DNA of 64,000 nucleotides from Nautilus pompilius (taxonomy: Eukaryota > Mollusca > Cephalopoda > Nautilida > Nautilidae): NCBI GenBank assembly GCA_018389105.1, contig JACATO010000052.1, forward strand, positions 1,178,001 through 1,242,000. Reading direction: 5' to 3'. The notes under the pieces are model-generated. The model did no database searches, was not told where the DNA came from, and worked only from the letters and a program-made list of their open reading frames with translations. Below, one piece after another: positions 8,426 to 59,381 of this stretch. Position numbers and translations under genes: made by a program. Within the stretch, counting starts at the first letter, position 1. Each line of letters starts with the position of its first letter.

Positions 8426-10943
8426 AACAATTTTGATTTGTTTTTTTTAAGTGGGCATTTAAATAAAACTTTGATTATGTATTGGTTGTTTGAATTATGC
8501 ATATGCATTAGCTTTATAAAATGTTTACTTGTATTGGCTAATGAACAGATTATGGACATATGGAGATGATTAGCGAGCCAGCTACTTCCAGTTACCTCCA
8601 CTGTGAACTGTGTTCATCACGAATGGGAAGGTTTTGTTGCAATATATTTTTTTAAAGAAGGAAAGGAAAAATAAAAACTGTTAATAGAACATCAGGTAAA
8701 TAAACAGTTGGCAGGGGAGAGTCTGCTTGTCTACAGAATAGCCTGGAGGTGGTAGAAACATGTCAGCAGCTAATTTAACTAACATTTGTTATAGGAAAGT
8801 CACATTTCCAACAGGCAGATAAGATTTAACAGTTTAGAATAAATATGCTGCATTAAAACAATAACAACAAAAAAGGAACATTTCTGAAAGTGGTGGGTAT
8901 TTCAAAAAGTTCAGCTTAGTTTCTTCCTACAAAACTGAATAGCATTAAACTCAGGCTATTCTATTGTCAGAAACATTGGTGAAGCCATAATTATCAGAAA
9001 ACAATTCAGTCTAAAATTAGTCTCTTGCTGTCTATCCTCCTGTTTTAAACTTTGTGAATATTTCTAAAAAAAACGGGTGATTAAATAATTTTTGAAGTCC
9101 TCTATTATTTTTGTTTAGTGAGATAGGTAGAAACAATATTGGAGCATATAAAACACTAGAAATTTTTGGTGATGTTGATTTTTGTTTTTTTCTACCAAAG
9201 ATTTACTCATATATATTATTTTTTCTTTATAGATCATACTGTCCATAGCATATATTATTCTTAGCATAATATTTGACCAGTAACTGGTTCAAAAATACTC
9301 ATGAACAATTATGTGTGAACTTATTCACTGTCAGTTGATGAACTGTAAGAAATTAATAACTTACAGTTTTTTTATTTTAATTTAGTGATATATTTTTAAA
9401 GCTTCTTAGTGGTAGTCTGTTATATTTTATACATTATGAGCTTTTGACACAAATTACACTTGTGCATAAAATCATAATAAGAATCAACATGGAATGATAG
9501 AAAAACTAAAGACTGACTTCTGTTTTTAACCTAAGCTTCCATTTGACACCTGCAGTGATACAGATGATTCTACCAGCACACATACATGCGCACCTGAGTA
9601 TTATCTTATCTCATGTTGGGGCTAGCAGCCACATAGGCTCCATCCATTTTTCTCCCTGAATAATCACTACAGCTGGTTATTGTTTTTTAACATTTCTTCC
9701 CTTGACAATTGTAGCTAAGTTTCCTACTGCCAGAGTTCACAAGTCATCTAGTGCAAAGCCATTCTTAGAAGACATAGAACAGCTGCTCACATCCTACCAT
9801 GGCTTTGGCACTTGAGTAGAATACAAAAATAAATATAGTGGCATCTATGGGAGTAACTGTGACCCATGTGAATGCAAAAAAAATCACTTATCTATAGTCC
9901 TGATTTTGTTTGCCTTTGTTTGAAATACTGGTAGTAGTTGTAATCCCAGGGAGTGAATTGGTCTTCAGAGATCTAATTTCAAGTTTTTCATCTTCCTTAA
10001 TGAACAAATTATATGATCTTTTTAAAAAGATCTATTACTATCTTCAAATTTTATGCATCTTTTCGGTTAATTTTTAACCCAGATTCTCTAGCACTTTTGA
10101 AAGTGGTGAAAGAAGAAAGAAATGTAGCTTTTTAGTCAAACCATAGGCTTATTGGTTTGGAAGAGTTGTTAATGTAATACATTTTTGTAGATTTTTATTT
10201 AATTCTCTTTGCATAATCAGTAGATTGAGATTTTGAATGGTTGTTCAAATTTCTCACTACCAGTGTTCCCCTCGTCCCCCCTTCTATTCTCCGCTACAAG
10301 ATGGATGGGCTCTTGTTAGAGATATTGCACATAATAGTAAACTAAAAAAAATTTATGCATGCTCAAAGAAAAGATGTCAGTACATTCTTTATTGGGAAAA
10401 GAGTTTGACAAAATTGCTTCAACAAGCAGCATAAACCAATAACAATTTTCTTATGTAATGAAAATCATTGTAAAGTTATCTGATTTAGAAGAAAAAAGTT
10501 TGTGATATGGAGAACTCATAAATGCCAATGCAATCCAAGTGGTGGTTGTGCAGAGGAATAGAGTTGGTTCTTCTGTTACTGTAGAGGAGCAGAGAGACAA
10601 CTAAGTAGTTTGTTGCCTTTTGTAAAATGTAACACTGTCTGTTAAATCTTTTAAAAATATTTTAACACACGTGTGTGCACACACACATGATGTTACTATT
10701 ATAATATTAGATTTTTAAGAATTGTGAACTCTTTAAGAAGTTACTTGATAGGAGGGAGAATTTGATGCATTGACATTGAAGAAAACTTGGACCTCTGTTA
10801 ACTTTGGAATTTTTCATAATCTGGTAAAATTTCATGATTTAGATCTGGGTTTTTTTTATAATTTGATACCTTTGAATTTAACCAGCACAGGGATATAAGG
10901 TAACTCTTTATTTGCAGACCTTCCTTTTTTTTTTTTTTTTCAG
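8426..10943. other. Final part of the parvin intron
   Basis: This is AT-rich, CpG-poor intron sequence ending in a 3' splice site. An uninterrupted T-run of about 17 bases lies directly before CAG at 10941-10943, a strong acceptor. A short CA/TG microsatellite lies near 10668-10688. No transposase block or additional exon is recognised. Confidence 0.65.
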
Positions 10944-11023
10944 ATGTTGTCAATTTAGATCTGAAGTCAACCCTCCGCGTCCTGTACAACATCTTCACCA
11001 AGTACAAAGATCAGAGTAGCTGA
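10944..11023 (+). CDS. Parvin, terminal coding exon
   Basis: Parvins are cytoplasmic adaptors of the ILK-PINCH-parvin complex at integrin adhesions. They bind integrin-linked kinase, paxillin and actin regulators through two calponin-homology (CH) domains. This exon starts directly after a long T-tract and CAG, in phase 1, with the first codon completed as Asp. It encodes (D)VVNLDLKSTLRVLYNIFT followed by KYKDQSS and a TGA stop. The motif 'VN.DLKSTLRVLYN.FTKY' is the last helix of the parvin CH2 domain and is nearly invariant. The tail after KYK (DQSS) differs from the short 'NVE'-type end known from vertebrate alpha-parvin. Codons are GC-richer than the surroundings, as expected for an exon. 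Upstream exons lie outside the window. Which paralogue this is (invertebrates usually have one) cannot be told, so no symbol is given. Confidence 0.93.
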
Positions 11024-12841
11024 AACCTGAAGACTCACCTCTTCACTCTCCACACCAACAAGGGCTCAATTGTTCTGTTGGCTGGCTATCTGGGCACAGC
11101 CAGCATGCTGCAGTCAAGATTTTCTTTCCTTCAGTCATTCATTTCCATCTCTTTGATGGGATATAGCTAAATTTTGTAGGAATATGTTATATATTACCAA
11201 GAAATATGGAACAGCCAGACATTACATTTATTTGCAGTGCAAGGCTTTGACTTTCTAATGCAAAGTTACAAACAAACAAACAAAAAAGAAAAGTTATTTG
11301 TGTGTGTGTGTGTGTGTGGAGTATTTATTCTTTAAAAACATTATTTATGCCCCAATTATTCTGCCAAATTTCTTTTCTTTATTTTTTCAAAATCTTTTCT
11401 TTACTCCCAATATACATGTGAATACTCATGTTGGATATTTCCATTTAAAACAAAAATCTGAACAAAATGTGTTATTCTTCTCAGTTGTTTAAGCATTTTT
11501 GCAAAATTTAGCTTTGAAATAACTGAGAACTGTTCAAGAATATTCTTAAATTATTCTTGGGTTGTTAATGAACATTGTAGAATCTTTCTTAAAATGAAGT
11601 TTATAAATAGTTTTAATATTTCTTGAAATAATAGACATTAATTTGCAGGAATGTTTACAAGAAGTTTGTTGTTATGAATTTCCAGTTTGGGGGAACACTT
11701 TTTTTTTTAAGATGCTGGGTACTAGATATATAAATGCTTGGTTGTCATTCTAAAAATATATATATATCTCACATTTTTAATATGTAATCTAACAATGTCA
11801 GAAGTCAGGCACCATTATTTGTCTTAAAAATTAACATGGGGTTTATTTTCGTAGAGAAGTGAATCATTGCATAATAAGAAGGTGCACTAAATTAAGGCCA
11901 AGTCAGTGAACAGAATACAATTCTGTGTTGTAAGAATACAGATTATCTTATAATACTGCAACATAAAAAAATAGAAACCTTTCTTACTATCCTTTGCTTA
12001 TCAAATAGTAAAAACATTGCTTCATTTTAATAATAGAACATTTAAAACTATCAAGTCCTTTTTTTAAAAAAATGAAATTACTGCAATTAAGGATTAGTTC
12101 CATCTGTGAGAAAAGAAAGCAAAGATGTCACATTCTTTAATTGATCTTATATCAAAAGATGATAAACACAAATATCCCAATTGACTTATTTATTTTAAAA
12201 TCTAAGGCATACTGACAGAAAGAAAATAATTAGATTTTTGTTCATTTTTTACTAATTTTATAAGGACATGTCCTTTATTTCTTAAATATTACAGCAGAAT
12301 ATTTTTGTCATGTCTATTAATGTATGTAAAGTTTTTGCAAAACTGTAATTACCCCATATATCTAAACATAATGAAAACAAAACAGGTTATTATTCGCTTG
12401 CCACTTTCCTAGTTGAGTTTTCATTTTGTTCAGTTAAAGAATTCTTTAATTAAATTTTGTGCTTCGGAGAAGAATTCTAGTATTTTCCCTTCCAAAGTTG
12501 GAAGTGCTTGGTTCCACGTGGCACAGGATTAGCAACACTATTGCAGATAAGCAAAACACAACACTCTTTCACCAGGGTTGTCTCCCTGATAGATATAGGT
12601 GTACGATACAAAAACAACAAAAAACAACAACAACAAAATAGAATTGGTTCACTCTTCCATTCTAAGGACCATATTCTTCTCTGGGACAAATCACCCATGG
12701 TATTTGACCATTGTCAGTTGTGCCAGGTTGTCTATATAGAAAAGACCATCCAATTCATCCCCAAGAGATTGGCATTCTATCTGTTCAGTAGAGAGAATAT
12801 TTTTTTTCCGTTTGAACCAAATTTCTTTCAATTTAAATAAA
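11024..12841 (+). other. Probable parvin 3' UTR, candidate poly(A) signal at 12836
   Basis: No coding sequence follows the parvin stop. Scanning downstream, the first canonical AATAAA on this strand that I see is at 12836-12841; an ATTAAA lies near 12448. A 3' UTR of up to about 1.8 kb is therefore possible, but the true end is not visible from sequence alone. The stretch contains a (TG)10 microsatellite at 11299-11318 and the SINE-tail-like segment at 12497-12612. Confidence 0.4.
12497..12612 (+). repeat. SINE-tail-like segment
   Basis: This segment aligns by eye with the 3' part of the repeat at 15735-16035. Both contain GTGGC(A/G)C(A/T)GGATT, then GCAGA(T/C)AA, then a GGTTG/AGTTG core, and end near a 'GATATAGGTGTAC'-like string. 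The tRNA-like head and the central SINE block are absent here, so this is a truncated copy or a related tail. Confidence 0.4.
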
Positions 12842-13196
12842 AAAATTTGTTTTGGATGATGTCAAGATATTGGCCACATGTTGTTTGGTTTGACTTCAAT
12901 TCTAGGAATCTTCATTTATCAGACATCTGAATACTGTTTTGAATGAAAATAAAACTTCCATTTTTTTTGTATGTTTGTTCCTCAAGTCTGCATTTTCATT
13001 GTTTCCTTTTCTCCAACTTTTAAAATATATGGCACTATTTTTCATTTTTGGTACTATTGTTTTGCATTCTTTTGTGCCTAGGTTGGGTTTTATTCAGTTG
13101 AAGTTAAATTGTTTGAAATATTCTGTTTGTTTACTGTTTTCGTAATTGTTTTATACCACCATTTTGGTATTATTTCATTAAAATTTAAGTGTATAC

Positions 13197-26100: not shown

Positions 26101-28167
26101 TGGCATTAATCGATTTCGATTTTGTATTCATAGCCATTTTCCTTTTAGGTGGCAGGGCCCTTAAGCCACTATGGTTCCTCCTCCTCTTCCTAATTACAAA
26201 ATTAAACTTTCTTCATATAATTGTAATTATTCATACCTTCATGTTGAAATAAAACCTTTCACTCATTCAAGACTGCTTCTATTCTTGATAAAATACAAAT
26301 TCCACAACCATACATATCCTCAACAACTGGTCAAACCAATAATTATGAATGAGTATAAGTACTTCTGATGACTTCCAACTGATACAATTTTCATACAAAT
26401 AGGGTACAGTCTTTTCATGGACTTCCATTCATTTTGCAGAGAGAAATAAGGTTTTTTATTTGACAAAGATCCATCCTCCATATTCATGCACCCACCAGAT
26501 AAAGTAAAAGGTCTAGATAATGTAACAAAGAGAATGAACTATTGAAAAAAAAAAAGTTCTTCCACCTTAGAAGTCATTTAATCTTCAAAGATAGCGAAAA
26601 GGGGTAAGTCTTAGGTGTTTCTTCTTAGACTGCACTTTAAAATGCTTGTAATACTTAATGTAGTTAAATATTTTTTTGGAGAGCTACTACAAATGCTTGT
26701 CATCATCCTCTACCCACAGACTTACAAGTCCACATGGTGGTGAACTCTTTAAATGCTGGTTACTAATTTCACTGGAAATTATACCTTTTTCTTTCAGGGT
26801 TCTCCTTTCACCTATGCTCCTTGACAGCTTCCTGCTTTACACTCTTCCTTACCGTAATACCAACCTCCCTTAAACAGTGCCTTTTATGGCAAATTAATTC
26901 ACTGTGATGTGCCCAGGTGGCCCCCTCATCACCCCCCCCCCCTTTATGCCTGCTGCTCTCTTGTTTGCGGGCACAGAAGGAAGTACAGTGTCCTGACCAC
27001 TTTGTCTGGACAGTCTGAGAAACAAGCCAACCACAAAATCTCTTCTGCATCATTGCTTTCTTGAACCAGACTTCCGTGAATATTAATGAAAGAGTGTTTG
27101 GGGGGGAAAACAGAAAGAAAAAAATATATATGGTGGTAATCAAATAAAAGCATTTGTGTAAGGTTGGGGAGGGCAAAAAGAAAACAAGAAAACCCCCAGA
27201 TCATTTAGAATAAGTACTTGTTGTTCCTTTGCCCATGGTTAGGTGCATTCAAGTTTTTTGGTGGCAGGGTCGCACAAGTACTACACACACTGACTCATTT
27301 CGGGCAAGTTTTAGCAGCAGTACGTAGCTCAGCTAAAGGGTAAACCTCATTTTATGATTTTACATCTCTCTTTCTCCATTTATACTACAGCTTTTTGTGG
27401 GGATTTTGAATTAGAAATTTGTGTTAACCACGATTAAAGTGATACGTATGTGTTTTTCTCCTGTTTATCATAGACACAGGTACTAATACTTCTGCTTTTG
27501 CATCATTTACACAACTTGAAGAGATTTTTTTTCTCTCCTTAAACTTTGGGTCTCTGATTTCTCCAAATATCCACGGAGCTGACCAAAGATGAGGGACATC
27601 TGTAGGGAGTGCAAGAGGTTGGGGTGTTTCATGCCTGCAAGCTGTATAACTGATTGCTCCTGACTACTTTGGTAGTAAAAACTTATTAGAACTCATCAAC
27701 CACAGCAGAAAACCATGCTTACTGGAGAAAGCATCACAAATGAGCTAGCACAAGAGCAAGAGAACCCACATCACTGACTAGACTCCAAACCTAATCTTGT
27801 GCGCCATACTAACTTTTCCATCATGACTAACAGAAAGATATACACCAACCCATCCGCCATCATTACTTGTGGATGCTTGCTGCCATAATCTTTTTTTTTA
27901 ATGTTTTTTTTTGAAAAACTTTTTCCTTGGGATGAATTCTAATACTACACCAATTTGATTCTCAAAGGAATAAATGACTGGTTAATTTGATCACAATCAT
28001 CAAAAAAAGTAAAAAAAAATAATAAAAAAAATGGACAGGAAAACTAACAGGACTTTGCTTGCTTGTTTGTTCTATATCCTAAGATTAAAATAAAAGACTT
28101 TGATGAAAAAGAGCAAAGTATTTCATCATTAAAAATAAATTAAATGAGTTATCCTTTCACTAATGTA
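23191..28167. other. CpG-poor AT-rich DNA, nothing recognised
   Basis: About 5 kb of the CpG-depleted domain. It contains a compact hairpin at 25215-25266, a C-run at about 26931-26941 and poly-A tracts near 28005-28030. Several open frames of 60-120 codons occur on both strands, but they lack recognisable domains and look like chance frames. The patch at 27560-27860 is GC-richer and might be an old repeat. Confidence 0.45.
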
Positions 28168-28199
28168 CAGAGTGATCAAAAAGTAACTATGCAGTGGAA

Positions 28200-29228
28200 A
28201 ATGTATTGTTTTTCTTTCAATATTTCAATACATTAACCCTTACAACATTTTTCACACGTTTTTTTATTTTCAATTCTTCAGATGTTATTCCTCTAATGAA
28301 ATTGATGATGTTTTGCTTCAGTTCATTGATGGAATGGAAATTACTTTCAAAGACCTTTGCATTCACTGCTCTCCACAGATAAAAGTCCGGGGGTGTGAAG
28401 TCAGGAGCGTGCAGGCCAAATTCCTTTCGATATCAGCCAATCACTGAACACTTTTTCCAGTGGTTCCATCCATTGAGCCGATGTGTGAGCAGTGGCTCCA
28501 TCCTTCTGGAAGTAGGCATCTTCAATTTCTCCGTCTAACTCACCAATAAAAGGATACAGTATGTTGTTACAATAATGCTCGGACTTGATGGCTTTTTCAA
28601 AAACTATAGGCCCAATAATGTGTTTCCTTGATATAGCCACCCATACACCGATCTTTTCATCATGAAGCAGTTTCTCAAACAGTTCATGAGGGTTAGAAGT
28701 AGACCAAATTCTGGTTCCCTGGCTATTAACCTATCCAAAGAGATGAATCCAACATTCATCAGGAAAAAATGTTTTGTCCAATATGTCGTCACCATTTACA
28801 TCAATAAAATTCTTAAACCAGTTGCAATATTCAACTTGCTTACTGTGGTCTGCAACTTGCAATTTGTGCACAATGTTCACTTTATACAGGTATAAATTTA
28901 ACTCCTTTAAAGCATTATGCGCACCATATTTGCTTGTTGAGAAAGTTGATGCAGTGATTTTGAAGGACACTGAAGCATTGCGTCTAAAGTTTTTGACATC
29001 TTCTTCAACACTATGGTTGATAATCCTCAATTGAACCAATATCCTCAAATTGCTAATCATTGCCCTTACATCATTTATTTTCAGAAGCTTTGCATCAGGA
29101 AATTCTTGTAAGAACTCATTTTGAACTCTTGTGCTGTATTTACTATTATTTATGTACACTTTCTTGACAAGAAAGATTAATTTGGTATTTGAAAGAACCA
29201 TTACACAAAAATTACAATCACATTTCAC
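28200..29228 (-). pseudogene. Mariner-like transposase with a nonsense codon and a frameshift
   Basis: The transposase cuts and joins DNA at TA sites with an RNase H-like DDD catalytic core. Translation runs on the minus strand from about 29228. The N-terminal part has the DNA-binding region and the segment SVSFKITASTFSTSKYGAHN. The first catalytic Asp is in FFPDECWIHLFG (near 28750). Directly after FG, a TAG stop (about 28729-28731) stands where the family has Tyr before VNSQ. The same frame then continues through ISRKHIIGPIVFEKAI and the second Asp in YFQKDGATAHT (near 28490). Near 28400 one base is missing, and the third Asp appears in another frame in DFTPPDFYLW. Spacing of the last two Asp residues is about 38 residues. 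Two lesions make it inactive, but the rest is well preserved, so the insertion is fairly recent. Confidence 0.85.
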
Positions 29229-29240
29229 TTTTGCAAATTT

Positions 29241-29331
29241 ACTGCCAACACCTGTTGGTCATTTTGGAAACTACAGTACAACTCCTCACACAGAACTGCC
29301 ATCTGTTGGTCATTTTGGAACTACATTACAA
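29241..29331. repeat. Direct repeat inside the mariner right end
   Basis: Two near-identical copies (29241-29280 and 29295-29331) share ACTGCCA, then CTGTTGGTCATTTTGGAA, then CTACA. Subterminal repeats of this kind are used for transposase binding in several Tc1/mariner groups; that role is inferred here. Confidence 0.7.
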
Positions 29332-29410
29332 AACAACAAACCACAAGTAAAGGAATCACAAATGATTACAAATATACTCCACTGTATAGTTACTTTCTGA
29401 TCATCCTGTA

Positions 29411-29849
29411 TATTCTTTACACATTTAATTTTCAGAATAAATTAAGTGGTATATATTTTTTCAAAATATTTCTTTATAACAGCTTTAATTTTATGCTACT
29501 TTGATATATTATATGCTGCCCCAATTTCATCTTTATACCCTTTCAACAACACAATTTTTATTTTTACAACTTTTCTTAATTTATTTAAAATGGGAATTCT
29601 TGTTGAATAGATACTTATGCAGTAATATTACTAGTTACCATAATGATCACATTAAAAGTGGCCATGCTTTGATCAACCAGTCAGGTGTTCATTTTTATTG
29701 TAGGTGTTATCAACCTATTTTTTTTTAAGGTAAAGAAAAAATATATTGCAAAAGTACAATGGCAACTAATCTATTGACAGAACTGTATGGTGTTGCAAAA
29801 TATTCTGATATCTTTTTTTTGTGAGAATTCCATCAGTTTTTATCAAGCC
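29411..29849. other. AT-rich spacer between transposons
   Basis: About 440 bp of AT-rich DNA between the mariner and the older Tc1-like relic. It may include unrecognised remains of the relic's C-terminal half, but no motif is visible. Confidence 0.4.
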
Positions 29850-30475
29850 AATAGTCCTGTAACCAGAAAAATAACCCAACTCTCACATTTTCTCCATCTT
29901 CCTTGCTCCAAGGTGTAATTCTGATGTCATTTAGCCTATTCAAGTTGTTCTTTTTTTTCTCCTTGTTTCCATATTAAAGCCAGGGCTTTCTAGCTCCTAC
30001 TTAGTCAATTAATCCAACATCTCCTAACCATCTTTTCATGATAGAGGTTTAGACTCTCAAACCAGCAACCTATCCCATTTTGTGGTTTTCTTCATTGGCC
30101 CTTTAACTTCATGGCTGATCCAGCTGACTTTATTCTATAAATGGTTGTACACACACCATGCCCATAACTTTCTCCACAATTTTCCATTGGAAGTAATCAG
30201 TTTATGAAGGGCAGTTATGGATAGTACCAAACAAAGTATTGAGAGCCATTGGCATTTCTACAAATGCATTGATCGAGTTAGCACCAAGAAGCATATTGGA
30301 TGAACACAGTAACATCATGCTTTCATTCAGTTTGAACCAAATTTAACATTCACAAAAATAACTTGACAGGTCCATAATAATGCAAAAGCCTTGATAAGTA
30401 CACCACAATTAATGGTTTATGTCTTTAAGCAAAGTTCTTTGGAATTTTAATGAAATTTCTGCTGAGATATATGTA

Positions 30476-32033
30476 CAGGTGCATCTCAAAAAATTAGAAT
30501 ATCGTGGAAGACTTCATTTTTTTCCCGTAATTTAATTCAAATAGTGAAATTTTCACATATTCTAGATTCATTACACATAAAGTGAAATATTTCAAGCCTT
30601 TTTTGGTTTTAATTTTGATGATTACAGCTTACAGCTCATGAAAATCAAAAATCCACTATCTCAAAATATTATAATATTTAATAAGATCAATAAAAAAAAG
30701 GATTTATAATATAGAAATGTCTAACTTCTGAAAAGTATGTTCATGTATGCACTCAATACTTGGTCAGGGCTCCTTTTGCACAAATCACTGCATCAATGTA
30801 GCCTGGCATGGAGGCAATCAGCCTGTGGCACTGCTGAGGTGTTATGGAAGCCCAGGTTGCTTTGATAGCGGCCTTCAGCTCCTCTGTATTGTTGAGTCTG
30901 GTGTGTCTCATCTTCCTCTTGACAATAGCCCATAGATTCTCTATGGGGTTCAGGTCAGGCGAGTTGCCTGGCCAATCAAGCACAGTAATACCATGATCAG
31001 CAAACCAGTTACTAGTAGTTTTGGCACTGTGGGCAGGTGCCAAGTCCTGTTGGAAAAGGAAATCAGCATCTCCATAAAGCTTGCCAGCAGACAGAAGCAT
31101 GAAGTGCTCTAAAATCTCCTGGTAGATGGCTGCGTTGACTTTGGACTTGATAAAACACAGTGGATCAACACCAGCAGATGACATGGCACCCCAAAACATC
31201 ACTGACTGTGTAAACTTCACACTGGCAAGCAACTTGGATTCTGTGCCTCTCCACTCTTCCTCCAGACTGTGGGACCTTGATTTCCAAATGAAATGCAAAA
31301 TTTACTTTCATCTGAAAAGAAGACTTTGGACCACTGAGCAATGGTCGAGTTCATTTTCTCCTTAGTCCAGGTAAGACGTTTCTGACGTTGTCTCTGGTTC
31401 AGGAGTGGCTTGACACTAGAATGCAACACTTGTAGCCAATTTCCTGGACATGTCTGTGTGTGGTGGCTCTTGATGCACTGACTCCAACCTCGGTCCACTC
31501 CTCGTGAAGCTCCCCCAAGTTTTTGAATCGGCTTTGCTTGACAATCCACTCAAGGCTGCCATCATCCCTCTTGCTTTTGCACCTTTTCCTACCACACTTT
31601 TCCCTTCCAGTCAAATTTCCACAAATATGCTTTGATACAGCACTCTGCGAACAGCCAGCCCTTTCAGCAATGACCTGTGGCTTACCCTCCTTGTCGGTGT
31701 CAATGAGTGTCTTCTGGACAACTGTCAAGTCAGCAGTCTTCCCCATGATTGTGGTTGTGTGTACTGAACCAGACTGAGAGATTCATGGGATTTATACTGC
31801 ATAAATAGTGATTTACTCAAACTCGAAATGGAATATTCTAATATTTTGAGATACATTTTTTCTATTTTTTTTTACCTGTAGGCCGTGATTATCAAAATTA
31901 AAATTAAAAAATGCTTGTAACATTTCAGTTTACATGTAATGAGTCTAGAATATATACAATTTCCACTTTCTGAAATAACTGACAAAAAATATTGAACTCT
32001 TCCACAATATTCTAATTTTTTGAGATGCACCTG
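30476..32033 (-). mobile_element. Tc1-family transposon, structurally complete
   Basis: A 1,558-bp element flanked by TA duplications (30474-30475 and 32034-32035). Both ends begin CAGGTGCATCTCAAAAAATT and agree for roughly the first 25 bases. A second, inner repeat of the same motif lies about 180 bp inside each end (30657-30679 left, 31831-31853 right). This gives the IR/DR arrangement of long inverted repeats carrying two transposase-binding sites each. One minus-strand transposase gene fills the middle. It is inserted in an older Tc1-like relic. This family is, from general knowledge, abundant in ray-finned fishes and other vertebrates. Confidence 0.95.
30753..31746 (-). pseudogene. Tc1 transposase with two frameshifts
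   Basis: The transposase recognises the IR/DR sites and moves the element by cut-and-paste into TA. Translation starts at MGKTADLTVVQK (31746), followed by the paired-like helix-turn-helix (AERAGCSQSAVSKHI) and the GRKRCKSKRD linker. A frameshift at about 31412-31430 leads into VKPLLNQRQRQKRLTW and the first catalytic Asp in FFSDESKF (near 31310). A second frameshift at about 31217-31228 leads into SVKFTQSVMFWGAMSS. The second catalytic Asp is in FQQDLAPAHS (31044-31046) and the Glu in NPIENLW (30939-30941). The spacing is 34 residues, the canonical DD34E. The chain ends with KGALTKY and a stop near 30753. All three catalytic residues survive; only the frame breaks inactivate it. Confidence 0.92.
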
Positions 32034-32120
32034 TATTTTCATGATCAACAAAGTATTTAAAAAGCATACTCGTATACAGTATTTTTGTATGGCAGACCCA
32101 TAACTTTGAATACCAGTGTA

Positions 32121-32945
32121 CACAGCAGCATAAGTTGTCTAATTTATATAATGCCCTATCTTTTCAAATGGCCTAGTGAAAAAATATTTTTCTTTTAAAG
32201 GAATTGCTTTTATGGCACTCAAGAACTATTTCATCTAAGCAAGACCCTTTTTATTTTTTTATATTTTTTGCTTAAAGGGAGTCAGATAAGAAAGCTTTAT
32301 ATGCTTAAGAAAAACAAACTCTCTGAATGTCCATCTACATCCATGTATTTGACATTTTTTTCTAAAAAATATCTTGAACCTATTATTACTTTTTATTTTT
32401 TAACAAATTAAAAAAAAACATCTCTGTTTAGATTCCTGCATAATTTGTGAGATGCAAGATACGTATTTTTACCAAATGCTCAGAATAACTTAAGATCTTT
32501 ATTTTCCAACTCCCCCCCCCTTTTTTTTTGTCCATGTTTCTATAGAATGCTGGGCTAACAATCGAGCTATTTTCAAAATGTTAAAATCTAAAACAACCTA
32601 TTCATTGAGTGCACTGAACTGTATGTTGTATACACACAAGAAAACGATTGTCCATATATAGAGGCAAGAAGAAAGAAACAACTTTTCATTGAAAGGGAGG
32701 CACTTTTCTGGAGTAAGCTAGACTGTCAAACTTTACATCATGAAACAACTGGGTCAGGATATATATCTCCCTGCACAGATTCCAGGTAGTAAACAAGATG
32801 AGCAGCCTATGCAGTACATTTAATCCTTGCGGATGATGATGAAGATCTGATGCTTTCGTTCACCTCATTGGCTTACAGCTGCAATGAAAACTTTCTTTAA
32901 ATTACACTATCAAATATTTGTTGGCAAAAAAAAACAAACAACAAC
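32121..32945. other. CpG-poor AT-rich DNA up to the composition boundary
   Basis: This is the last CpG-depleted segment, with about six CpGs in 800 bp and a C-run and T-run near 32511-32529. No gene or transposon is recognised. Confidence 0.5.
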
Positions 32946-33060
32946 GAGACGTTTGTTTTTTGTTGTTGTTGTTTTTTTTTTATGAATAGAATATCTGGGT
33001 TTTGGAGCAGTATCATCATCCATGGCGCTAAGCTGGCGTCGGGACTGAAATTAGCTGGTT
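32946..33060. other. Sharp CpG/composition boundary
   Basis: To the left CpG is rare for 32.9 kb; to the right CpGs occur every few tens of bases for 31 kb. I count about 17 CpGs in 34001-34300 against about five in 1-3000. The change occurs within roughly 100 bp. Confidence 0.85.
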
Positions 33061-36000
33061 TTAATAACAAAAACCGCTATAAGAGGTGGGTACTGCTGGT
33101 CACTGTGTCAGGCAGGGGCTCCGTCCGCTCTCCTCCTACAGTCTCCGCATCAGTGGCGGCGAGTCGACCACTACCTGGCGGAGGCTCAGATCTCGCGGTT
33201 GTGGCTGCGTCTCTCTGCTCTCTCTGCTCTCTCTCTCTTGTCCTTGGAATGACTTCTCTGCTTCTGGCTTTCGACCCGTTCCGTGTAACACCAAGAGCTT
33301 TCGCGTGTTAATATATACTAACATATACCATTCCGTAACATCACCCGCATCCCGGATAGTAAAGGTAAACACACAGGGTCTGCAGTCGAAGAAACTTAAG
33401 CCGCCAGTTTATTCGTTTGATTTTTGTTTTCAACATTTGAAAGAAAAAAAAAAAGTTGTGGGAGGACATTTGGCCACATATTTAACGATGCAGAAATTAG
33501 GCGGAAAGATAAGCGACTTGTATCATTTCAACTATGGTTCCCAAACTTTAGCTTAGAGAGATTACCAGACTTATGCGCCCCGCCGCTGCCTGGCAACCAA
33601 GTTTTGGAGTCTGGAGAGTAGATGCGGGTGGGGTCTCTCCCTCCCTCTCTCTGGCAGAGTTGCCTTAGTCCTCGCTAATTTGTTTCGTGTCAGATCAGTA
33701 AATACGTTTCATTCATTCTGATTTCTTAAAGAAAAACAACAAACACTCAATGATTTTATTCTTTTATTTCTGGTAGAAGCTAACATAATAGATCTATACA
33801 GCACACCTGGGAGATGCGCTTCTGTTAGGAACCATTGTTAATCAGGTCTTCGCGTGTTGTCGTATAAGAGTCCATGGGAAACCCCCCAGGGCTAATTTAG
33901 CGGTCGCCCTCAGTTGCTGTTTTCACCGGTTTAGCAGATGTACGCCATGAGGTGCGCACAACAGTAAAACTTTATTATATACAATATATTCGTGTCGGGG
34001 AGCCAGGCAGGTAACCGTGTTTCCGTGTCCTTTGCTCGTAGTTTCGAACGCATATCAAATGTGAAGATTTCACCAAAAATTATGCACACAGTAAACAATT
34101 TCGCGATAGCAGAACTCCTCCATTCCGGATTTAAAGCTCAGCTATCGTTTCTGAAGCACTGCACGGAAAAGTTTCCAAACGTCGACCCGGGGGGTGGGGG
34201 CTTTAAAATTCAGTAAATAATCCGCCATGGCTCTTATGTAGAGGCTGCTCTCCCGGATGATACCGACCACTCTTTCTACTCTCACTTTCGCAAGAGCGCA
34301 GAGAAAAAAGGGGGGGGGAATGCGGAATTCTGAGTGGATGTCAACCCTTTCGTGTACGCATTTGCTAATTTGTGATTTAATTAATTGGCTATTTTAGCGT
34401 TAAAGCTGGATGGGCTTGGATGCTCTTTTTCTTTAATCCAAGTAATGGGTATGTAATCCGCGCGAGAAGCCCGGTCGGTCCGTCATGGCCGACGTTTCCG
34501 TCATTGTGAGAGATACCAGCTAACAGCACCTGCTCAATGAACTGTCTCCGCGTGACTCCGCCCGGGCCCCATTGTTCCGGGACGGCGGCACATGCAGCAA
34601 AATGCCTTTAATTGTACGCTGTAATTTATGAAAATCGGTAAATAGTAGTCGTTTATGAACCAGGGAGAGAGAGAGAGGGGTGTGAGGGGGGTCGTCTCCC
34701 CCCCCCCCCCAACCACATATCGTATTTGCTCTTAGCCAGGTTGCATTTGCGCCAGTCGCTGGGCTGGTTTTTCAAACGAATAACGAGGTTGGGGGAGGGA
34801 GTTAGTTGTCTGTCTGTCTGTCCGTCCGTCTGGCGACTTTTAGGGTAATTAGCCGTCTTATTTATCGCGACCCACCGCTTTTAATATCATCAGGGTTTCT
34901 CGAAAACGGTTGTCGTGTGATGAATTCCGAACACACAGCCTCGTCCAGACCTTAACTCGATTGCGAAGTCATGATGGAAGCAGAATACTATAAATAACAG
35001 CAAAAATTAAATTTCTACTAACAGTACTACTACTACTGGTAATAGCGCTATTATTAGTATTAATGCTACTACAGTTTATACTACTAATGTAATCGTTACT
35101 GGTACTGATGCTACTATTGTCATTCAAATGAAATAGCATTACTGTAGTGATTTCCGGCCACGCCACGCCACGCGCTAATAATAATAATAATATAATAATA
35201 ATAATAATAATACACACAGAAAATGGAAAGGGGCCGGAATTCTATACCGTAATGATGAACGTTTTCTTGATTCCCATAGCACTTTGAACACCAGTGACAG
35301 TAGTAGTTTCCGTCCTTTGCTCCACAACATCACCAATTCACCGAGACGACGAACTCCATTCCATCCCTGAAGGTTTGTTTATGTGGGGTCCAGATAAACT
35401 TCTAAATATAACCAAGGCGAACTAATGCAGCGACAGAATCTTACTGAAGCAAATAAGAATGTACATTTATTTTTATCTGTTTCATCTTAGACGTTTCAAT
35501 GGCATATCCACCCGTCTAAGACTCCTAACCTGGACACATTCACAAACGTAAAGGCAGATACATAATAATAATAATAATAATAATCTCTCTTTGTTCTGCC
35601 TGCAGTCAGTCTTTGTAGGTCTTTCTCAGTCAGCTATAAATGTTACAGTAATATGCATGTACATTATTATTATTATTATTACCACCAGACTTTCTATGCG
35701 TTAGAATTTGATGATATTTTAACTCACAGTAAATAGGCTGTGAAAGAGATTTGCCCGGGGAAAGGTGAGGGCGACTAGTTGAGCTGGCAGCCTGCCAAAA
35801 GGACCGTGAGCTTAGTACACCTGGTGAGGAAATTTGTAACGGGATCCACGCCAGCAGGTAAAGTTAGACGGCGGAAAGGTGAGTTGTGAAGGAGAATTTA
35901 GCAGGGCGCTGAGCGGAGCCAAATTGGCATTGTAATTAAAGATGTACCATTGGTCAGTCAGTTCAAGCAGACCTCCCCCCGTCCGTCGTACCTCAGCCCC

Positions 36001-37579: not shown

Positions 37580-37766
37580 AGTTGCTGCAGCACAGTAGTT
37601 CTTAATTAAAGGTACAGACGAGGCTATAATCGACGTCATCTGCTTCAACTCTTTGATCAAGATCAATCCATATGACATCAGTTATAGTCTCTACTACACG
37701 ACATCTGACGTCAATTATAGCCTCGTCTATACCTTTAATTAAGAATTACTGGCGCAGTAGCAACCA
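37580..37766. mobile_element. Foldback (MITE-like) element
   Basis: Two arms, 37595-37639 and 37706-37750, are reverse complements at 42 of 45 positions; the three mismatches are all transitions. Weaker complementarity extends outward another 15 bases or so (GTTGCT on the left, AGCAAC on the right). The loop is about 66 bp. A direct repeat also links GACATCAGTTATAGTCTC in the loop with GACGTCAATTATAGCCTC in the right arm. No coding capacity and no clear target duplication were seen. Confidence 0.75.
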
Positions 37767-40147
37767 GTTCAGGAGGCCTCCCCACTATTTAAAAATATTT
37801 AATTAAATATTGTGTTTACTACTTGTAAGTTTGTTTCTTTTTTTTTTTATTTTGCAATTATCAAAGAAATATTCTACTTCCTGAATCCACGCATGCGTCC
37901 GTCAAGTGGTGGGACTATCCGGGTAGAGCACCCGCCAGCGAGTGAAATAAATTATTAACCTGGAGAGTTCGTTGCTGCTACTGTTCACCTTTGCATTACA
38001 AACCACCTGCGGTGACTCTAAAGGCGGCTGGACGTGTCTTCTTCACACGGTTCCTTTTAATCTTTTTTAGAGCTTCACTCGACTTCCACGATATATATTC
38101 TGAGCTGGCGATCGTAACTAAAATCTGGTTTGGTAATTAACCTTCAGGAACTTTAAATATTCGCTATTTTTTTAGCTATTAAGGCGACGTGTCGGAATCG
38201 AACTTCTCCTCTTCAAGGAGCCCAAAAACTAACACATCAACGCGATAATCGATAAATAGTGATCGATTGCCGAGTTTAGTGCGGAAAACAGTAATAGCGC
38301 TACCAGCTGTACTAACTTTGGCCGTCTCTCGTATATCTGGCCAAGATGTACATATTTCAGCTGTGGTTGCGTGTATTCTGGACTTGTTTCGGTTCGCGGT
38401 CAGGCATGGACGTGAGAGCTCCATTGTATGGGCTGCTGGAAGGACAGAATTGATGTTTGTCGAAAAATGTCTACTAACGTCTGCCGGGTACCTGCACCGT
38501 CTAAAAGACATCGCCCGCCATACTGACTGACGTTCGGTGCTCATATGATGTCAAGGTGCGTGTGTGTGGGGGGGTAGCTCTACACGGCCAGAACAGGAAC
38601 CCGGACAAGTCCTGATCAACCATCGAAGCCGCCAACCGAGCCAAACCCCTCCGACGTGACAGGAGTGAAGGAAGCTGGTGCGTGTAGTGTATGTGGTGTG
38701 GGGGTCCTGACCGAACCCTGATTGATACACGGTCCCGGGGGGGGGGGGACGCAGGCTTTTCGTGCTACGACAAATGGCCAACTCGTGAACCACCAACGGA
38801 CAGAACTTCACTCTGCTGTTTTCCTCGATTTGTCCGTCCCCCCCCCCCGCCAACAATCGGGACACAAACTAACGTATTGTAGTAATAGCGGGTCTCCTGA
38901 TCACTATGACAACGGGCGCGGCACCGCATAATACTATAAAACCTGCGTAGACTTTATTAGTATTTTAATTTACATAATAATCCGAAAAAATATGAGACGG
39001 TTAATAATAAGAGGATCTTTTTTCTCGCCCAATTTAAAAAAAAAAAAAAAAAAAACTCCCGTGGGTCTCCTTCCCGGCGCACGAGAGCCTCCATTATCCG
39101 GTAATGCCGGCCGTTCAAAGTCAGCTCGCGCTAAGCGTGTCGGCGGGGAGAATTAATCACTTGTTTCAGGTTTATTCTTCCATTAAATCTGTCCGCGCTG
39201 TTCCAATATTGACTCTGGCAACAATCCCCGGCTTCTGTCCCTCTCCTTTTGTGCCGAACCATTGAGCGTTCGCGGGCCTTCCCGGCTTCCCCAGCCTTGG
39301 GGGGATCCCCCCCCCGCGACTGTGTCGATGTTCGCGCATGCGTTCGAGGAGCCGGTGTTCGGGCCGCCCTAGTTACCCGACTATTTAAGTTCCGGTCTTC
39401 TAACGTCCGGCCAAACGCCGCAACTACTCTCATCTATTTGTTCTCTCCTCCTCCAAAAGAAGCGTAAAAGCCGGTGGGGGGGGGGGGGGGAGAGGGGAGA
39501 AGAAGGGAAAAATTAGATCGAGAACGTGGAGCTGTTATTTTGATTTGGGATTTTTTTTAAAGTTTGTTTGTTGCTGTTTCAATTGTTGGCGGAATTCCTG
39601 AGGCCATTAGGGAGAAACGCGGCAACGGTAGCTGCGTGTGAGCGCGTCAGACGGCGCACCCGGTGTGTGTTGCCACGATGTTAGGAGGGCGCCAGGCTTC
39701 TCGTTTCCAGCCTATCTCGAGTCACATTAGTTTTCTTCCACATAGGCTGCCTCTGGATTAGAACAGATCTAATAAACAAATTAGCATAACTCAATCTGTA
39801 CAATGCGTGATGCGGCTTGGATTAGTTGTATAATTCATCAACAACAAATGATAAGGGGGAAGTATACAAGATAAATTGATTAATTATGGATCGGTCTGTA
39901 ATGGTATTAATTTATGCATACATTAATGTATTTATATATATATGATACATAGAAAATCTGGGGATAAAGTGAAAATTGCACATGATAGAATCGCATCTCA
40001 CGTGTAAAAATGAAATGCTCCATGGTACAGCCAGGTATGATATGCTGTAGTGTGGTTGGTTGTTATGCAAACAATCAGAAGGATCATAAAAGTATAGGAA
40101 TATCACTGTAGTGTGGTGAATCTGTGGAGAATACTTTAGCCCTCGGG
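37767..40147. other. CpG-rich DNA with G/C homopolymers, no gene recognised
   Basis: This contains long G or C runs (38738-38750, 38838-38848, 39300-39317 mixed, 39474-39491), an A-run near 39036-39055 and a CpG peak at 39241-39480 (23 CpGs by my count). A perfect 14-bp palindrome ATACATTAATGTAT lies at 39918-39931. Open frames on both strands at 38179-38544 and 39131-39467 have no recognisable domain. Confidence 0.45.
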
Positions 40148-40935
40148 ATGAAAATATCACTTGAAAAGTGTACAGAAATCAAAGTCTTGGCTACTGAAGG
40201 CCAACCCATACAGCGGGTCGCAGCCCGACTTCGTTTTAGTAGGAGCTGTATGCAAGACTTCTAAAGAGAATACGCAGAATTGGTACTGGTGAAAAAAGAC
40301 GGAGCCGAGAAAGAAGGAAGGACAACATTTAGGTTAACTAAGGGCTCATATTCTACATCATGAAAAGTTTTAATCAGCTGGTAAAGTGGGAAATCAGGGT
40401 TTACGTGGTAAAAACAGAGCTACAACTGCTCATGAAGACTTTACACTGCACCGTGGTTTCCATCCTGCGTGATGGCGTCCAGGCATAGCCAGTTCCCACA
40501 TCTCAGCTGGACAGGCGCAAAGGGGCCGCTAAGATTTCCCGACCAAGTTTGGCTAGGATCTGACAGAATTGCCGCTGTCCGGGAAATTCCACGTCTCGTC
40601 AAAAGACGGGCCGAAATGGGGCCAAGCAAGCGGAACAGGAAGTAGACGACTGAGCAGTGGCGGACTGTCCTCATCACTGACGACGACAAGTCTGTTTAGC
40701 AACAGGAAGGGGGTTTGTGCAAAGGAGGGCGGCTGATATTTTGTTGTTCCTACTGCAGACAGGGAGACGAGAGGATCAATGTCTGGGACTGCATTTGTAA
40801 GGATGAGGGTCGGACACCTGAAGAGAGTCGGGATAATTGAGAAAAAATCTAAGCGACAAAATATGTCGCAGCTAATATTAATTACAGAGATTTTGGTTAC
40901 TTTCTTTTTCAGCTTCAGTGCGACACATTTATTTA
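40148..40935 (+). pseudogene. Tc1-like transposase relic
   Basis: From an ATG at 40148 the translation reads MKISLEKCTEIKVLATEGQ and then PIQRVAARLRFSRSCMQD. This is the N-terminal helix-turn-helix of Tc1-like transposases ('..r.rIv.L...G.s.r.IA..l..S...V'). Stops and frame changes follow. At about 40645-40695 it reads TTEQWRTVLITDDDKS, the counterpart of 'W..V.wSDES' with the first catalytic Asp. At about 40780-40935 it reads INVWDCICKDEG, ATKYVAANI and a degraded FLFQLQCDTF, where the second Asp block should be. The final Glu region is absent or unrecognisable. Terminal repeats were not found. It is inactive and of a different lineage from the Tc1 at 30476. Confidence 0.72.
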
Positions 40936-43247: not shown

Positions 43248-43838
43248 CCCACGACAGTGTGGCTTTACTGTCTACAACAGTGTAATTCTACACTCCACGA
43301 CAGTGTGGCTTTACTGTCTACAACAGTGTAATTCTACACTCTACGACAGTGTGGCTTTACTGTCTACAACAGTGTAATTCTACACTCCACGACAGTGTGG
43401 CTTTACTGTCTACAACAGTGTAATTCTACACTCCACGACAGTGTGGCTTTACTGTCTACAACAGTGTAATTCTACACTCCACGACAGTGTGGCTTTACTG
43501 TCTACAACAGTGTAATTCTACACTCCACGACAGTGTGGCTTTACTGTCTACAACAGTATAATTATACACTCTACGACAGTGTGGCTTTACTGTCTACAAC
43601 AGTGTAATTCTACACTCCACGACAGTGTGGCTTTACTGTCTACAACAGTGTAACTCTACACTCCACGACAGTGTGGCTTTACTGTCTACAACAGTGTAAT
43701 TCTACACTCTACGACAGTGTGGCTTTACTGTCTACAACAGTGTAATTCTACACTCCACGACAGTGTGGCTTTACTGTCTACAACAGTGTAATTCTACACT
43801 CCACGATAGTGTTGCTTTACACTCTATGACAGTGTAAT
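43248..43838. repeat. 46-bp satellite array, about 13 copies
   Basis: The phrase GGCTTTACTGTCTACAACAG recurs every 46 bp from 43261 to 43767 (12 starts), with a degenerate thirteenth unit after 43813. Each unit is itself two 23-bp halves: ACACTCCACGACAGTGTGGC-type and ACTGTCTACAACAGTGTAAT-type. It also contains a short hairpin (AGTGTA-ATTC-TACACT). Units differ mainly by CTCC/CTCT variants. There are no unique spacers, so this is not a CRISPR array. Confidence 0.95.
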
Positions 43839-46124
43839 CAACGTTCACGAAACAACATGTGTAAAATGTAAAATGAATTTTTTTTTTTTTTTTACATTAG
43901 CTGTGGAGGAGAAGTGTACGCAGGCTGTATTCTATCACTGGACAAAAATTTCATCTGAACTTCATCGTTAATGACTAACTTTAAGAGCCACACGACCATT
44001 TTTATTTGATATGTTTTTACATCAAATATGAAAGATGGTTAAAAATGGTCTTTTGGTTTATTACATCAATCATTGACGGTCAGATTAAGATGATGACCTT
44101 TCCTCTTGCGCAGATGCTGCAAATGTGGATTTTGGTGTAATTAATGCTGGCTAATAAATACATTTCTTTATGAGACTTGTTTGATGATTACATCGTAAGA
44201 CGAAAGGTTTATCATATGAGAGGTAAGGAGGAGATTATTAGGTTCTCTCCGTTTATGGAAGAAGGCACCAAATAGCCTCCAACAGCCGGCTTTCTCTACC
44301 CTCTCTCGTTCTCATGTTCTAGGAGCTCGGTTTCTGCACAGTTCGTTTTGTCTTCTGCGATGCTTCCAAGGATTACAGATTACGGTTTAACAAAACAGCG
44401 GATAATGCGATTTAATCAGTTGAAGTCCGACCACAACCGGCTGACGATGAGGCCTGCGGCTCTGCGGTCATTGATTGGTGTCTAGGATGCAGGCTGGCAA
44501 CAAAACAAAACCAAAAAAGCCAAAGGGAGAAGAGATGGCCGCATCTTCGAGGAAAGATGTCACTGGGAAAACTCAGAACACGGGTCCACGAGCAGCGTCG
44601 AGCTAATGGGTGGAGAGCTAGAATAATCTCGACCACCCGGAAAGGAGGGGGAAAACAAGAAATAGAAGTGGTGGGTGAGAGGGATGTAACAGAACCTTTG
44701 GCCACGGCGACGTCCGATAAATATTGGTTCGGGCAGACAAGGCAATCGATCGCCCCGCTATACCAAGCAGGTCCACTGGGCTAGCTAATGAAAAACAAAT
44801 GACTTCCGAGAGAAAAGCCCTGCCGGTTTCCACCATTCATTTCCTATTGACGCAGATCAACATTCCAGTCCACAAAGATAGGGCCTACGTTGCTCTGTAG
44901 GCGTTCATGCGTATGTGGAAAAGAAGACTGACCGTCCACGTAGCGAATAAATTGTCATGGAAGAAAAATAGTTTCCCCGGAGCCGTGGTTTCGTGGATTA
45001 TCATTAGCATCTTGCATGAAACTCGTCATCTAGTCAGCAGGAAATCGTCAGAGTTTGGCTTATAAGCGAAAGATGGGGGGGGTAAAATGGCGGAACTATA
45101 AGCCTCAGACCCGAACGTCTGTGAATAGCCGTCTTCTAGGTTCCGGTTTGCTGATAGTCGAAGCCAAGTACAAGAAGAAACAAATGAATCGGGGCACAAA
45201 TAATGACAAAGAGTGAACAACATGAACAGGGCATCTCGAGTAGCTGCCCTACTTCAAAAGATGTCACGATGGCATCAAGCTTAGAAAACGAAATCCGTTT
45301 ATTACGATTTACCGTCGTCAACTTAGAGAAAAAGATTCCTGCAGTGAAAAGCCAGCAGAGCTACATTTGAATTCAGATACCAACAGACACGAAGATGCAA
45401 AATACACCAGCAGACAGACCAACCGACGCTTTGTCAGCGACCGACTGCGTTTGACGAGACTTATCTTGCGCACGTGCGATGCCTTGGTGACAACAGGGGA
45501 CGACAGTAGTTGGAGGAACCGCCATCGATCTTGGAAGTCAGCACCGGATGCCAAATATCAGTCTGCGACGGGCGTAAAGTCCATGTACGCATTAATATTT
45601 TCTAGAATTTAGTAAATTAATTGAAGCTGGAAAGTTTTTTGCTCTTTTTTTTATTGTAGTTGCAAATCCACTGAATACGGATGCAGAACGTTCAAAAACT
45701 TAAAGGATTGGTTGGTGTGCGTATGCACGCGCGCGCTCGTGTGTGTTGGGTGGGGGGGGAGGATAGTTGACGTATACTTCCGTTTAGGGAGAGACACTGG
45801 TGATGTTTCATGCTGTCATATCCTCGAGACAAAAGCCGTACGATCCGTATTTTAAAGTCTGGGTTCAGACATGTTTGGTTCGGTAATTCTTAAATGATGG
45901 AGAAGTGTTATAAACAATGGAAAGCCTCTAACCCCGTGATTACATGATCCCGTTAGCCGGGGAAGAGGCAGATGGACGGTGTAACTGAGTGGGTACCAGG
46001 CAGCTTAGCTTCTGAAGCCATTATTATCTGCGAGGAGTTCCAAACAGGAAGAGCTTGTAAAACTACATTCGTTCGAGAAGGAAGTCGACTGGGAAGTTAC
46101 GAAAGACCGAAATAATAACTACAT
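43839..46124. other. CpG-replete DNA, no gene recognised
   Basis: A cruciform-capable inverted repeat lies at 43994-44050 (outer arms GACCATTTTTA/TAAAAATGGTC, inner arms TATTTGAT/ATCAAATA). Open frames at 44412-44836 and 45318-45612 overlap on both strands without recognisable domains. Confidence 0.4.
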
Positions 46125-46370
46125 ATCTCTCTCGTCTCTCTCTCTCTCTCATCCTCTCTTCTCTTCATCTCTCTCTCTCCCCATCTCTCTCTCTCTTCAT
46201 CACTCTCTCCATCTCTCTCTCTCTCATCTCCATCTCTCTCTCTCTTCATCACTGCTCTCCATCTCTCTCCTCTCCATCTCTCTCTCTCTTCAATCACTCT
46301 CTCCATCTCTCTCTCTCTTTCATCTCTCTCCATCACTCTCTCTCATCTCTCTCTATCCTCTCTCTCTCTA
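46125..46370. repeat. CT-rich minisatellite
   Basis: About 245 bp of pure pyrimidine-rich sequence built of variants of CCATCTCTCTCTCTCTTCATCACTCT. The frames it opens are low complexity and not genes. Confidence 0.9.
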
Positions 46371-49374: not shown

Positions 49375-49828
49375 TTCTCTCTGTACTGGCGTCATCTCTC
49401 TCTCTCCCTCTCTCTGTACTGGCGTCATCTCTCTCTCTCTCCTCTCCTCTGTGGCGTCATCCCTGGCGTCTGGTCATCTCCTCTCCCTCCCTCTCTCTGT
49501 CACCTCTCTCTGTACTGGCGTCATCTCTCTCTCTCTCTCTCTCTCTCCTCTCTCTCGTCTGTACTGGCGTCATCTCTCTCTCTCTCCCTCTCTCTGTACT
49601 GGCGTCATCTCTCTCTCCTCCTCTCTCTGTACTGGCGTCATCTCTCTCTCTCTCTCTCTGTACTGGCGTCATCTCTCTCTCTCTCTCCTCTCTCTGTACT
49701 GGCGTCATCTTTCTCTCCCTCTCTCTGTACTGGCGTCATCTCTCTCTCTCTCTCTCTCTCTCCTCTGTACTGGCGTCATCTCTCTCTTCCTCTCTCTGTA
49801 CTGTCGTCATATATATATATATATATAT
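49375..49828. repeat. TGTACTGGCGTCAT minisatellite with variable CT tracts
   Basis: About ten or eleven copies of TGTACTGGCGTCAT are separated by CT dinucleotide tracts of varying length, giving units of about 25-45 bp. A divergent copy lies near 49450-49475. The array ends in (AT)10 at 49808-49828. Long open frames across it are low complexity. Confidence 0.92.
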
Positions 49829-54278: not shown

Positions 54279-54316
<38 letters not shown>

Positions 54317-54398
54317 GGAGAGCGAGAGATGGAGAGATGGAGAGCGAGAGAGAGAGATGGAGAGAGAGAGATGGAGAGCGAGAGATGGAGAGATGGAG

Positions 54399-54449
<51 letters not shown>

Positions 54450-54492
54450 CGAGAGAGGAGAGAGAGAGAGAGAGATGAGAGAGCGAGAGATG

Positions 54493-54529
<37 letters not shown>

Positions 54530-54581
54530 TGGAGAGAGAGATGAGAGGAGAGAGAAGAGAAGAGAGAAGAGAGAGAAGAGG
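54279..54581. repeat. GA-rich minisatellite
   Basis: About 300 bp of almost pure purine, with recurring GATGGAGAGCGAGAGA units. The block at 46125-46370 has a related motif on the opposite strand. The arginine/glutamate-rich frames it opens are artefacts. Confidence 0.92.
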
Positions 54582-59290: not shown

Positions 59291-59381
59291 TATATATATA
59301 TACTAATAGTTTTGAACGAAAGTGTAAATATATATATATATATATGAACGAAAGTGTATATATATATATATATATATATAA
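59265..59381. repeat. Triplicated transposon end with TA microsatellite
   Basis: GAACGAAAGTGTA occurs at 59280-59292, 59314-59326 and 59346-59358, each followed by an AT run; the last run continues to about 59381. The unit of about 33 bp consists of the Tc1-like terminal repeat plus its TA target expanded into (TA)n. Confidence 0.85.

Follow-up and report, generated by a model that had tools for sequence, protein, structure and literature searches.

A sharp CpG edge between parvin and TEAD genes in Nautilus pompilius, the probable border of two germline methylation states

In sperm of Ciona intestinalis, DNA methylation occurs in all-or-none domains whose sharp borders are unrelated to the first methionine or the stop codon; the sections of the report considered here describe gene bodies as methylated, promoters and intergenic DNA as unmethylated, and tail-to-tail genes as methylated at their 3′ ends (PMC3827831). 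In the octopus, one gene class was reported, in the part of the source used here, to carry methylation in its gene bodies and beyond the transcription end and not at the promoter (PMC9476566). In vertebrates, DNA methylation valleys span 5 to about 60 kb; they are unmethylated, lie at developmental regulators, and are set in a genome that is methylated elsewhere, and the cited portion of the source has them often covering whole gene bodies (PMC8941758). Mollusc methylomes, in the excerpt drawn on here, show low-to-moderate levels of about 10% (PMC11292947), which speaks against a mostly methylated genome in a mollusc.

The DNA described here, referred to as the window, is a stretch of 64,000 bp (positions 1,178,001-1,242,000 of contig C52) from the Nautilus pompilius genome, which comprises 727.6 Mb in 2,558 contigs. 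In the window, a CpG-poor state that extends 22 kb past the stop codon of a parvin gene gives way to a CpG-rich domain of 65 kb. Methylation was measured in Ciona, whereas the evidence here is the mutational footprint it is presumed to have left. Unlike the gene-body methylation of the octopus, the CpG-poor state was found in six of eight arbitrary 5-kb samples that were placed irrespective of genes. A resemblance to the vertebrate valleys is that the flanks of homeobox genes are CpG-rich. The long CpG-rich domain at a developmental gene, TEAD, in a genome in which most samples were CpG-poor, may be valley-like too. However, the domain lies upstream of TEAD and does not cover the body of the gene (98.3-134 kb), which is CpG-poor with an observed/expected ratio (o/e) of 0.35, and it is slightly longer than the roughly 60 kb given for valleys in the part of the source cited. 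The pattern is of a kind known in animals; what is unusual is how long it is, how sharply it shows in the sequence itself, and that homeobox loci are CpG-rich. No report of this locus was found among the papers listed on cephalopod, mollusc, and mosaic methylation and on valleys, which is not proof that none exists, and the main text of the N. pompilius paper, in the portion considered here, contains neither "methylation" nor "CpG" (PMC8257504).

Size and sharpness of the CpG step

CpG is scarce for about 32.9 kb of the window and plentiful thereafter, as had been claimed in an earlier, sequence-only reading. The CpG o/e, a measure already corrected for C + G content, is 0.16 over 1-32,900 and 0.97 over 33,001-64,000, and when one break in CpG density is fitted, it lies between 32,944 and 32,945, with twice the log likelihood ratio at 1,414. 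The five CpGs which that reading counted in bases 1-3000 agree with the present count (2, 1, and 2 per kb), and in 500-bp bins, the plot it had proposed as a check, the step persists after GC correction: the left bins range from 0.00 to 0.52 (57 of 65, the 8 touching the two transposons in Table 1 being excluded) and the right bins from 0.55 to 1.44 (61 bins), and the two ranges are disjoint. A switch within about 100 bp had also been proposed; the support interval (Table 1), taken within 3 log units of the best point at 32,945, bears out an edge that is sharp to about 250 bp, the narrower figure being uncertain. GC content steps together with CpG, from 0.329 on the left to 0.445 on the right (a step of 0.116), with its own change point at 32,994. 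The step in CpG content is thus real and sharp. Within the left half, a further change point occurs at 12,394, where CpG rises from 2.3 to 5.6 per kb (twice the log ratio, 22); CpG counts in this half also show a gradient (Spearman 0.37, p 0.004), which may be only a reflection of this small step.

A wider view was obtained by binary segmentation of the window with 100 kb on either side (264 kb, in window coordinates), which placed five edges, at -88,559, -84,538, 32,830, 94,930, and 98,275. The description of the window as two 30-kb domains does not hold at this scale, at which the left side is the end of a 117-kb desert and the right side belongs to a CpG-rich domain that ends beyond the window, in another sharp edge at 98,275 (interval 98,254-98,337). 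The desert is uneven, with one 2-kb bin at -67,999 reaching an o/e of 0.56, and past 98.3 kb the DNA is CpG-poor again but more mildly so (2-kb bins, 0.17-0.64).

Table 1. Features in and around the CpG edge (window coordinates)
Feature	Position	Strand	Basis
CpG-poor domain	1-32,944	none	CpG o/e 0.16, GC 0.329, CA/TG o/e 1.28; right end of the 117-kb desert from -84,538
CpG-rich domain	32,945-64,000, on to 98,275 (65.3 kb in total)	none	CpG o/e 0.97, GC 0.445; upstream of TEAD
CpG and GC edge	32,769-33,026	none	change point with support interval; 32,830 in the 264-kb segmentation
A-rich/T-rich imperfect hairpin on the edge	32,923-32,981	none	spotted by eye in the sequence
Last parvin coding exon (23 codons), stop TGA at 11,021-11,023	10,943-11,023	+	tblastn with human alpha-parvin residues 348-370, E 2.1e-6; stop read in the sequence
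Possible 3′ end of parvin	12,394-12,953	+	small CpG step; ATTAAA at 12,449, AATAAA at 12,836 and 12,948
Probable second decayed DNA transposon	28,162-29,414	-	inverted ends 28,162-28,209 and 29,368-29,414
Left repeat copy, split by the Tc1-type element	30,075-32,120	+	aligned with 58,728-59,292: 341 identities in 459 ungapped columns
Decayed Tc1-type DNA transposon inside the left repeat copy	30,474-32,035	-	arms 30,474-30,678 and 31,832-32,035, 79% alike; Pfam DDE_3, 4.3e-15
Right repeat copy, transposon-free, CpGs retained	58,728-59,292	+	alignment with the left copy; at least 40 other genomic matches

With regard to the other dinucleotides, several have similar o/e on the left and right (AA 1.14/1.15, AC 0.93/0.94, AT 0.86/0.88, and TA 0.76/0.79) and others differ (CC 1.16/1.02, GpC 1.13/0.95, and GA 0.92/1.09), while the o/e of CA/TG is 1.28 on the left versus 0.99 on the right, an excess confined to the left. 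A simple equilibrium model, in which CpG transitions are 16 times faster, gives values near those of the left side (CpG o/e 0.17, CA 1.34, CC 1.18, and GA 0.90). However, it yields a GC content of 0.388 against the observed 0.329 and a GpC o/e of 0.97 against 1.13 on the left, and it explains about half of the GC step, so that part of the step needs another cause.

Genes and repeats flanking the edge

Genes were located by tblastn with approximate human protein sequences as queries; identities were therefore checked independently by Pfam and against solved structures. Parvin lies on the + strand with 12 colinear matches from -85,528 to 10,943-11,011 (ten with E <3e-4 and two weak, 0.018 and 1.1), and TEAD lies on the same strand with 10 colinear matches from 105,216 to 130,396, every one with E <3e-4. 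Beyond it, the C-terminal part of REV3L was found on the minus strand (13 matches between 158,004 and 144,569, colinear but for one). Pfam domains (CH, TEA, YBD, which is the YAP-binding domain, and DNA_pol_B) scored above the cut-offs in six of the ten exons tried, the other four, including the 23-codon parvin exon in the window, having no match. The joined parvin exon translations have solved alpha-parvin as their best match (E 1.6e-61), and the joined TEAD exons have solved TEF-1 (E 3.3e-128).

In human, an insertion site at 11p15 was described, in the part of the report used here, as lying 8 kb from PARVA, with TEAD1 228 kb away on its other side (PMC2928786). Since the two genes are adjacent in human too, the parvin-TEAD neighbourhood is probably old. 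Parvin and TEAD share a strand in Nautilus, an arrangement compared here with what we take to be the orientation of PARVA and TEAD1 in human.

Two of the CpG edges lie near the 5′ ends of these genes. The left edge of the desert, at -84,538, is 0.9 kb beyond the first parvin exon match (-85,528 to -85,412), and the edge at 98,275 is just past an island with GC of 0.56-0.75 at 95.0-97.5 kb, probably the TEAD promoter; the first coding exon detected for TEAD lies a further 6.9 kb on. For the window edge, the distance from the parvin stop codon is 21.9 kb, with no exon recognised in that interval, and the kb immediately right of the edge, at a GC content of 0.40-0.49, is less GC-rich than are the islands at -84,538 and 98,275.

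Exon searches in the window gave chance-level results. Over 1-30 kb, six-frame Pfam scans, which also missed the parvin exon at 10,943, returned only weak matches judged to be due to chance (best, rve_2, E 0.046), and over 33-63 kb, four frames in Pfam and two by phmmer against PDB did likewise (best in PDB, a uracil-DNA glycosylase, E 0.2); 30-33 kb and 63-64 kb were covered in part. Rfam at gathering scores and ARAGORN with the bacterial code found nothing in the window. As for transcription factor genes in the CpG-rich domain, none of the homeobox or forkhead matches listed (the best candidates having been scored) is on this contig, and 125 open reading frames of at least 62 aa in 64.0-98.5 kb, read by eye, contained a Tigger-like transposase and no transcription factor domain. 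A CTCF-like motif was also considered at the edge and rejected: with an approximate consensus and at most 3 mismatches, 33 matches were found against 23.3 expected, and the two overlapping matches nearest the edge (33,167-33,182) have 3 mismatches and are thus no evidence.

A dispersed repeat has one copy on each side of the edge, the two being about 70% alike, with an alignment score of 102.5 versus at most 40.0 in 107 control comparisons. The right copy has at least 40 further matches on other contigs with 65-84% identity (40 of 202 candidates scored; the left copy is absent among those listed), and since the family is common to both sides, both sides belong to one genome. The CpGs of the left copy have decayed relative to the right one: of 14 CpGs in the right copy within the alignment, 12 are ungapped, and at these the left copy reads TG 6, CA 3, CT 2, TA 1, and CG 0, while 6 of 13 GpC sites, taken as a control, are kept (Fisher, p 0.015 for sites kept and p 0.005 for transition type), in a comparison that consists of one repeat pair with no fixed ancestral CpG state. 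A BLAST alignment of the pair, in two shorter pieces, gives TG 5, CA 2, CT 2, and CC 1, with none kept and one gapped, so that 7 of 10 are TG or CA. No additional copy for this comparison was found in the other DNA segments analysed.

The right end of the Tc1-type element in the left copy has short matches at no fewer than 39 other genomic places (40 of 453 candidates having been scored), and the element resembles what we take to be a family common in fish. The other decayed transposon presumably resembles a transposase-bearing element as well, and its longest open reading frame has no Pfam match. Tigger/pogo-like transposase remains were recognised by eye at 84,829-85,393, inside the CpG-rich domain, and a decayed stretch at 40,140-40,760 looks Tc1/mariner-like by eye, frame scans there having no transposase match. 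Self-complementary stretches in the CpG-rich half, at 34,962-35,138, 37,581-37,764, and 43,951-44,093, are perhaps small palindromic transposons. A tandem array at 43,249-43,838 has a 46-bp unit in 12.8 copies with 96% matches and a weaker 23-bp sub-period, and long TC/AG-rich arrays, one with a CTGTACTGGCGTCA unit, occur at 46,126-46,369, 49,376-49,812, and 54,279-54,580, all in the CpG-rich half, few arrays being present on the left.

Origin of the edge

The edge is probably of natural origin, marking where two states of germline methylation meet, the parvin side being methylated and the domain upstream of TEAD protected, and not an assembly artefact. The DNA on the left would comprise the parvin transcription unit and about 22 kb past its stop codon, long methylated in the germ line, and its CpGs would have been lost for that reason, by decay to TpG and CpA. 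The 65-kb domain would have stayed unmethylated and kept its CpGs, terminating just past the GC-rich island. Methylation would accompany parvin transcription, overrun the 3′ end, and halt where it meets the protected domain.

The sequence-only reading had attributed the step to mosaic germline methylation, and this is still the best reading, given the regional CpG depletion, accompanied on the left by an excess of TpG/CpA, the decay between the repeat copies, the gene-class pattern described below, and a DNMT1, which the genome encodes (one catalytic-domain exon, E 1.7e-38). The depleted domain starts just inside the 5′ end of parvin, but at the 3′ side it runs on for those 21.9 kb, with only the small CpG step near 12.4 kb close to the possible end of the gene. 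The fixed transcription boundary which that reading implied has a similar balance: the other two edges, at the parvin 5′ end and at the island upstream of TEAD, suit it, and the window edge, so far from the parvin stop codon and with no exon recognised in between, does not.

Run-on methylation from parvin to the edge is likely, as judged from base composition. T-over-A skew follows the genes (+0.042 in parvin, +0.048 in TEAD, and -0.069 in the minus-strand REV3L), and between 11.1 and 32.9 kb, transposons excluded, it is +0.033 (0.017 to 0.049), compared with 0.008 (-0.016 to 0.034) in the CpG-rich domain; that it is kept up to the edge suits transcription running on from parvin. On the other hand, G-over-C skew over the same 11.1-32.9 kb is -0.035 (-0.068 to -0.005), close to the -0.039 of the CpG-rich domain and opposite to the gene bodies (+0.050 in parvin and +0.075 in TEAD), which argues against simple read-through. 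A caveat for the methylation border as an explanation is that perfect dinucleotide runs number 36 on the right versus 7 on the left.

The opposite skews also bear on an unrecognised minus-strand gene at 12-33 kb, which would have its promoter at the edge and a methylated body running left from 32.9 kb. Such a gene would resemble the two other edges of the contig, which are near 5′ gene ends, and a C-over-G skew at 12-28 kb (-0.027) would fit it; however, the T-over-A skew of +0.038 at 12.4-28.1 kb is opposite to that of REV3L, the six-frame scans of 1-30 kb (with the reservation that they missed the short parvin exon) detected no exon, and the first kb to the right lacks the high GC of the islands at the other edges, so that we regard this gene as unlikely. 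A border of GC domains (isochores), produced by biased gene conversion or by replication timing and with CpG simply tracking GC, would account for a GC step at the same place that exceeds what CpG decay alone gives in the simple model. The six-fold shift in GC-corrected CpG o/e and the TpG/CpA excess on the left speak against it, as does CpG-rich DNA at low GC elsewhere in the genome (GC 0.372 with o/e 1.00 at locus L033, and GC 0.325 with o/e 0.88 at L057), and such a border is highly improbable.

An assembly join had been named as the main alternative, and the present data give it no support. A misjoin at the low-complexity hairpin, or the fusion there of DNA from two organisms into a chimera, could explain why CpG, GC, and microsatellite content all shift at or near one point where an A/T-rich hairpin lies. 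Yet parvin and TEAD, neighbours in human, flank the junction on the same strand, and their human adjacency makes a misjoin very unlikely, since it would have to restore the gene order by chance; a genome-wide repeat family is present on both sides; and the contig has other sharp edges of like kind near 5′ gene ends. Taken with these points, a misjoin or chimera is extremely improbable.

As the border of two methylation states, the edge suggests that a presumed germline methylation edge can stay in place to within a few hundred bases for as long as CpG erasure takes, and be visible from sequence alone. It is 22 kb from the parvin stop codon, no gene start is recognised there, and it offers a clean site at which to ask how methylation is halted where a transcribed domain ends.

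CpG state elsewhere in the genome

The arbitrary samples (8 of 20 chosen places) comprise six that are CpG-poor (0.19-0.34), one mixed (0.64), and one rich (1.00), and the CpG-poor state therefore seems the commoner one in the genome. With regard to gene classes, CpG o/e was taken in 800-bp flanks, which for both classes begin 2.5 kb ahead of the match in contig coordinates, so that intron, upstream, and downstream DNA are pooled. An o/e of at least 0.6, a cut fixed in the script that first displayed the homeobox values and not beforehand, was reached in 18 of 20 homeobox flanks (median 0.95) and in 0 of 13 proteasome flanks (median 0.20, highest 0.57; Mann-Whitney, p 3e-6). Of 98 homeobox matches, the best 21 were considered and 20 form the set, the one on C1295 being dropped as too near the contig start; the set covers 15 contigs, 14 of them with a mean of at least 0.6, and the two flanks below the cut have 0.38 (L044) and 0.52 (L053). 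The proteasome set has one flank per contig on 13 contigs, from 22 matches, and one flank holds another exon match. In the Nautilus genome, the CpG-rich state thus accompanies homeobox genes and the CpG-poor state proteasome genes, and that CpG state tracks the kind of gene is as expected for germline methylation of broadly used genes.

A bolder reading would be that of a mostly CpG-depleted invertebrate genome with developmental regulators in very long protected domains, i.e., a valley-like system outside vertebrates in which an active barrier at 32.9 kb stops methylation out of parvin and edges have been stable to a few hundred bases for as long as it takes to strip almost every CpG from one flank; we hold this to be possible but doubtful.

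Contigs C126 and C1804 each carry three homeobox matches of full or almost full length, with spacings of about 60 to 330 kb, which are perhaps parts of a spread Hox cluster.
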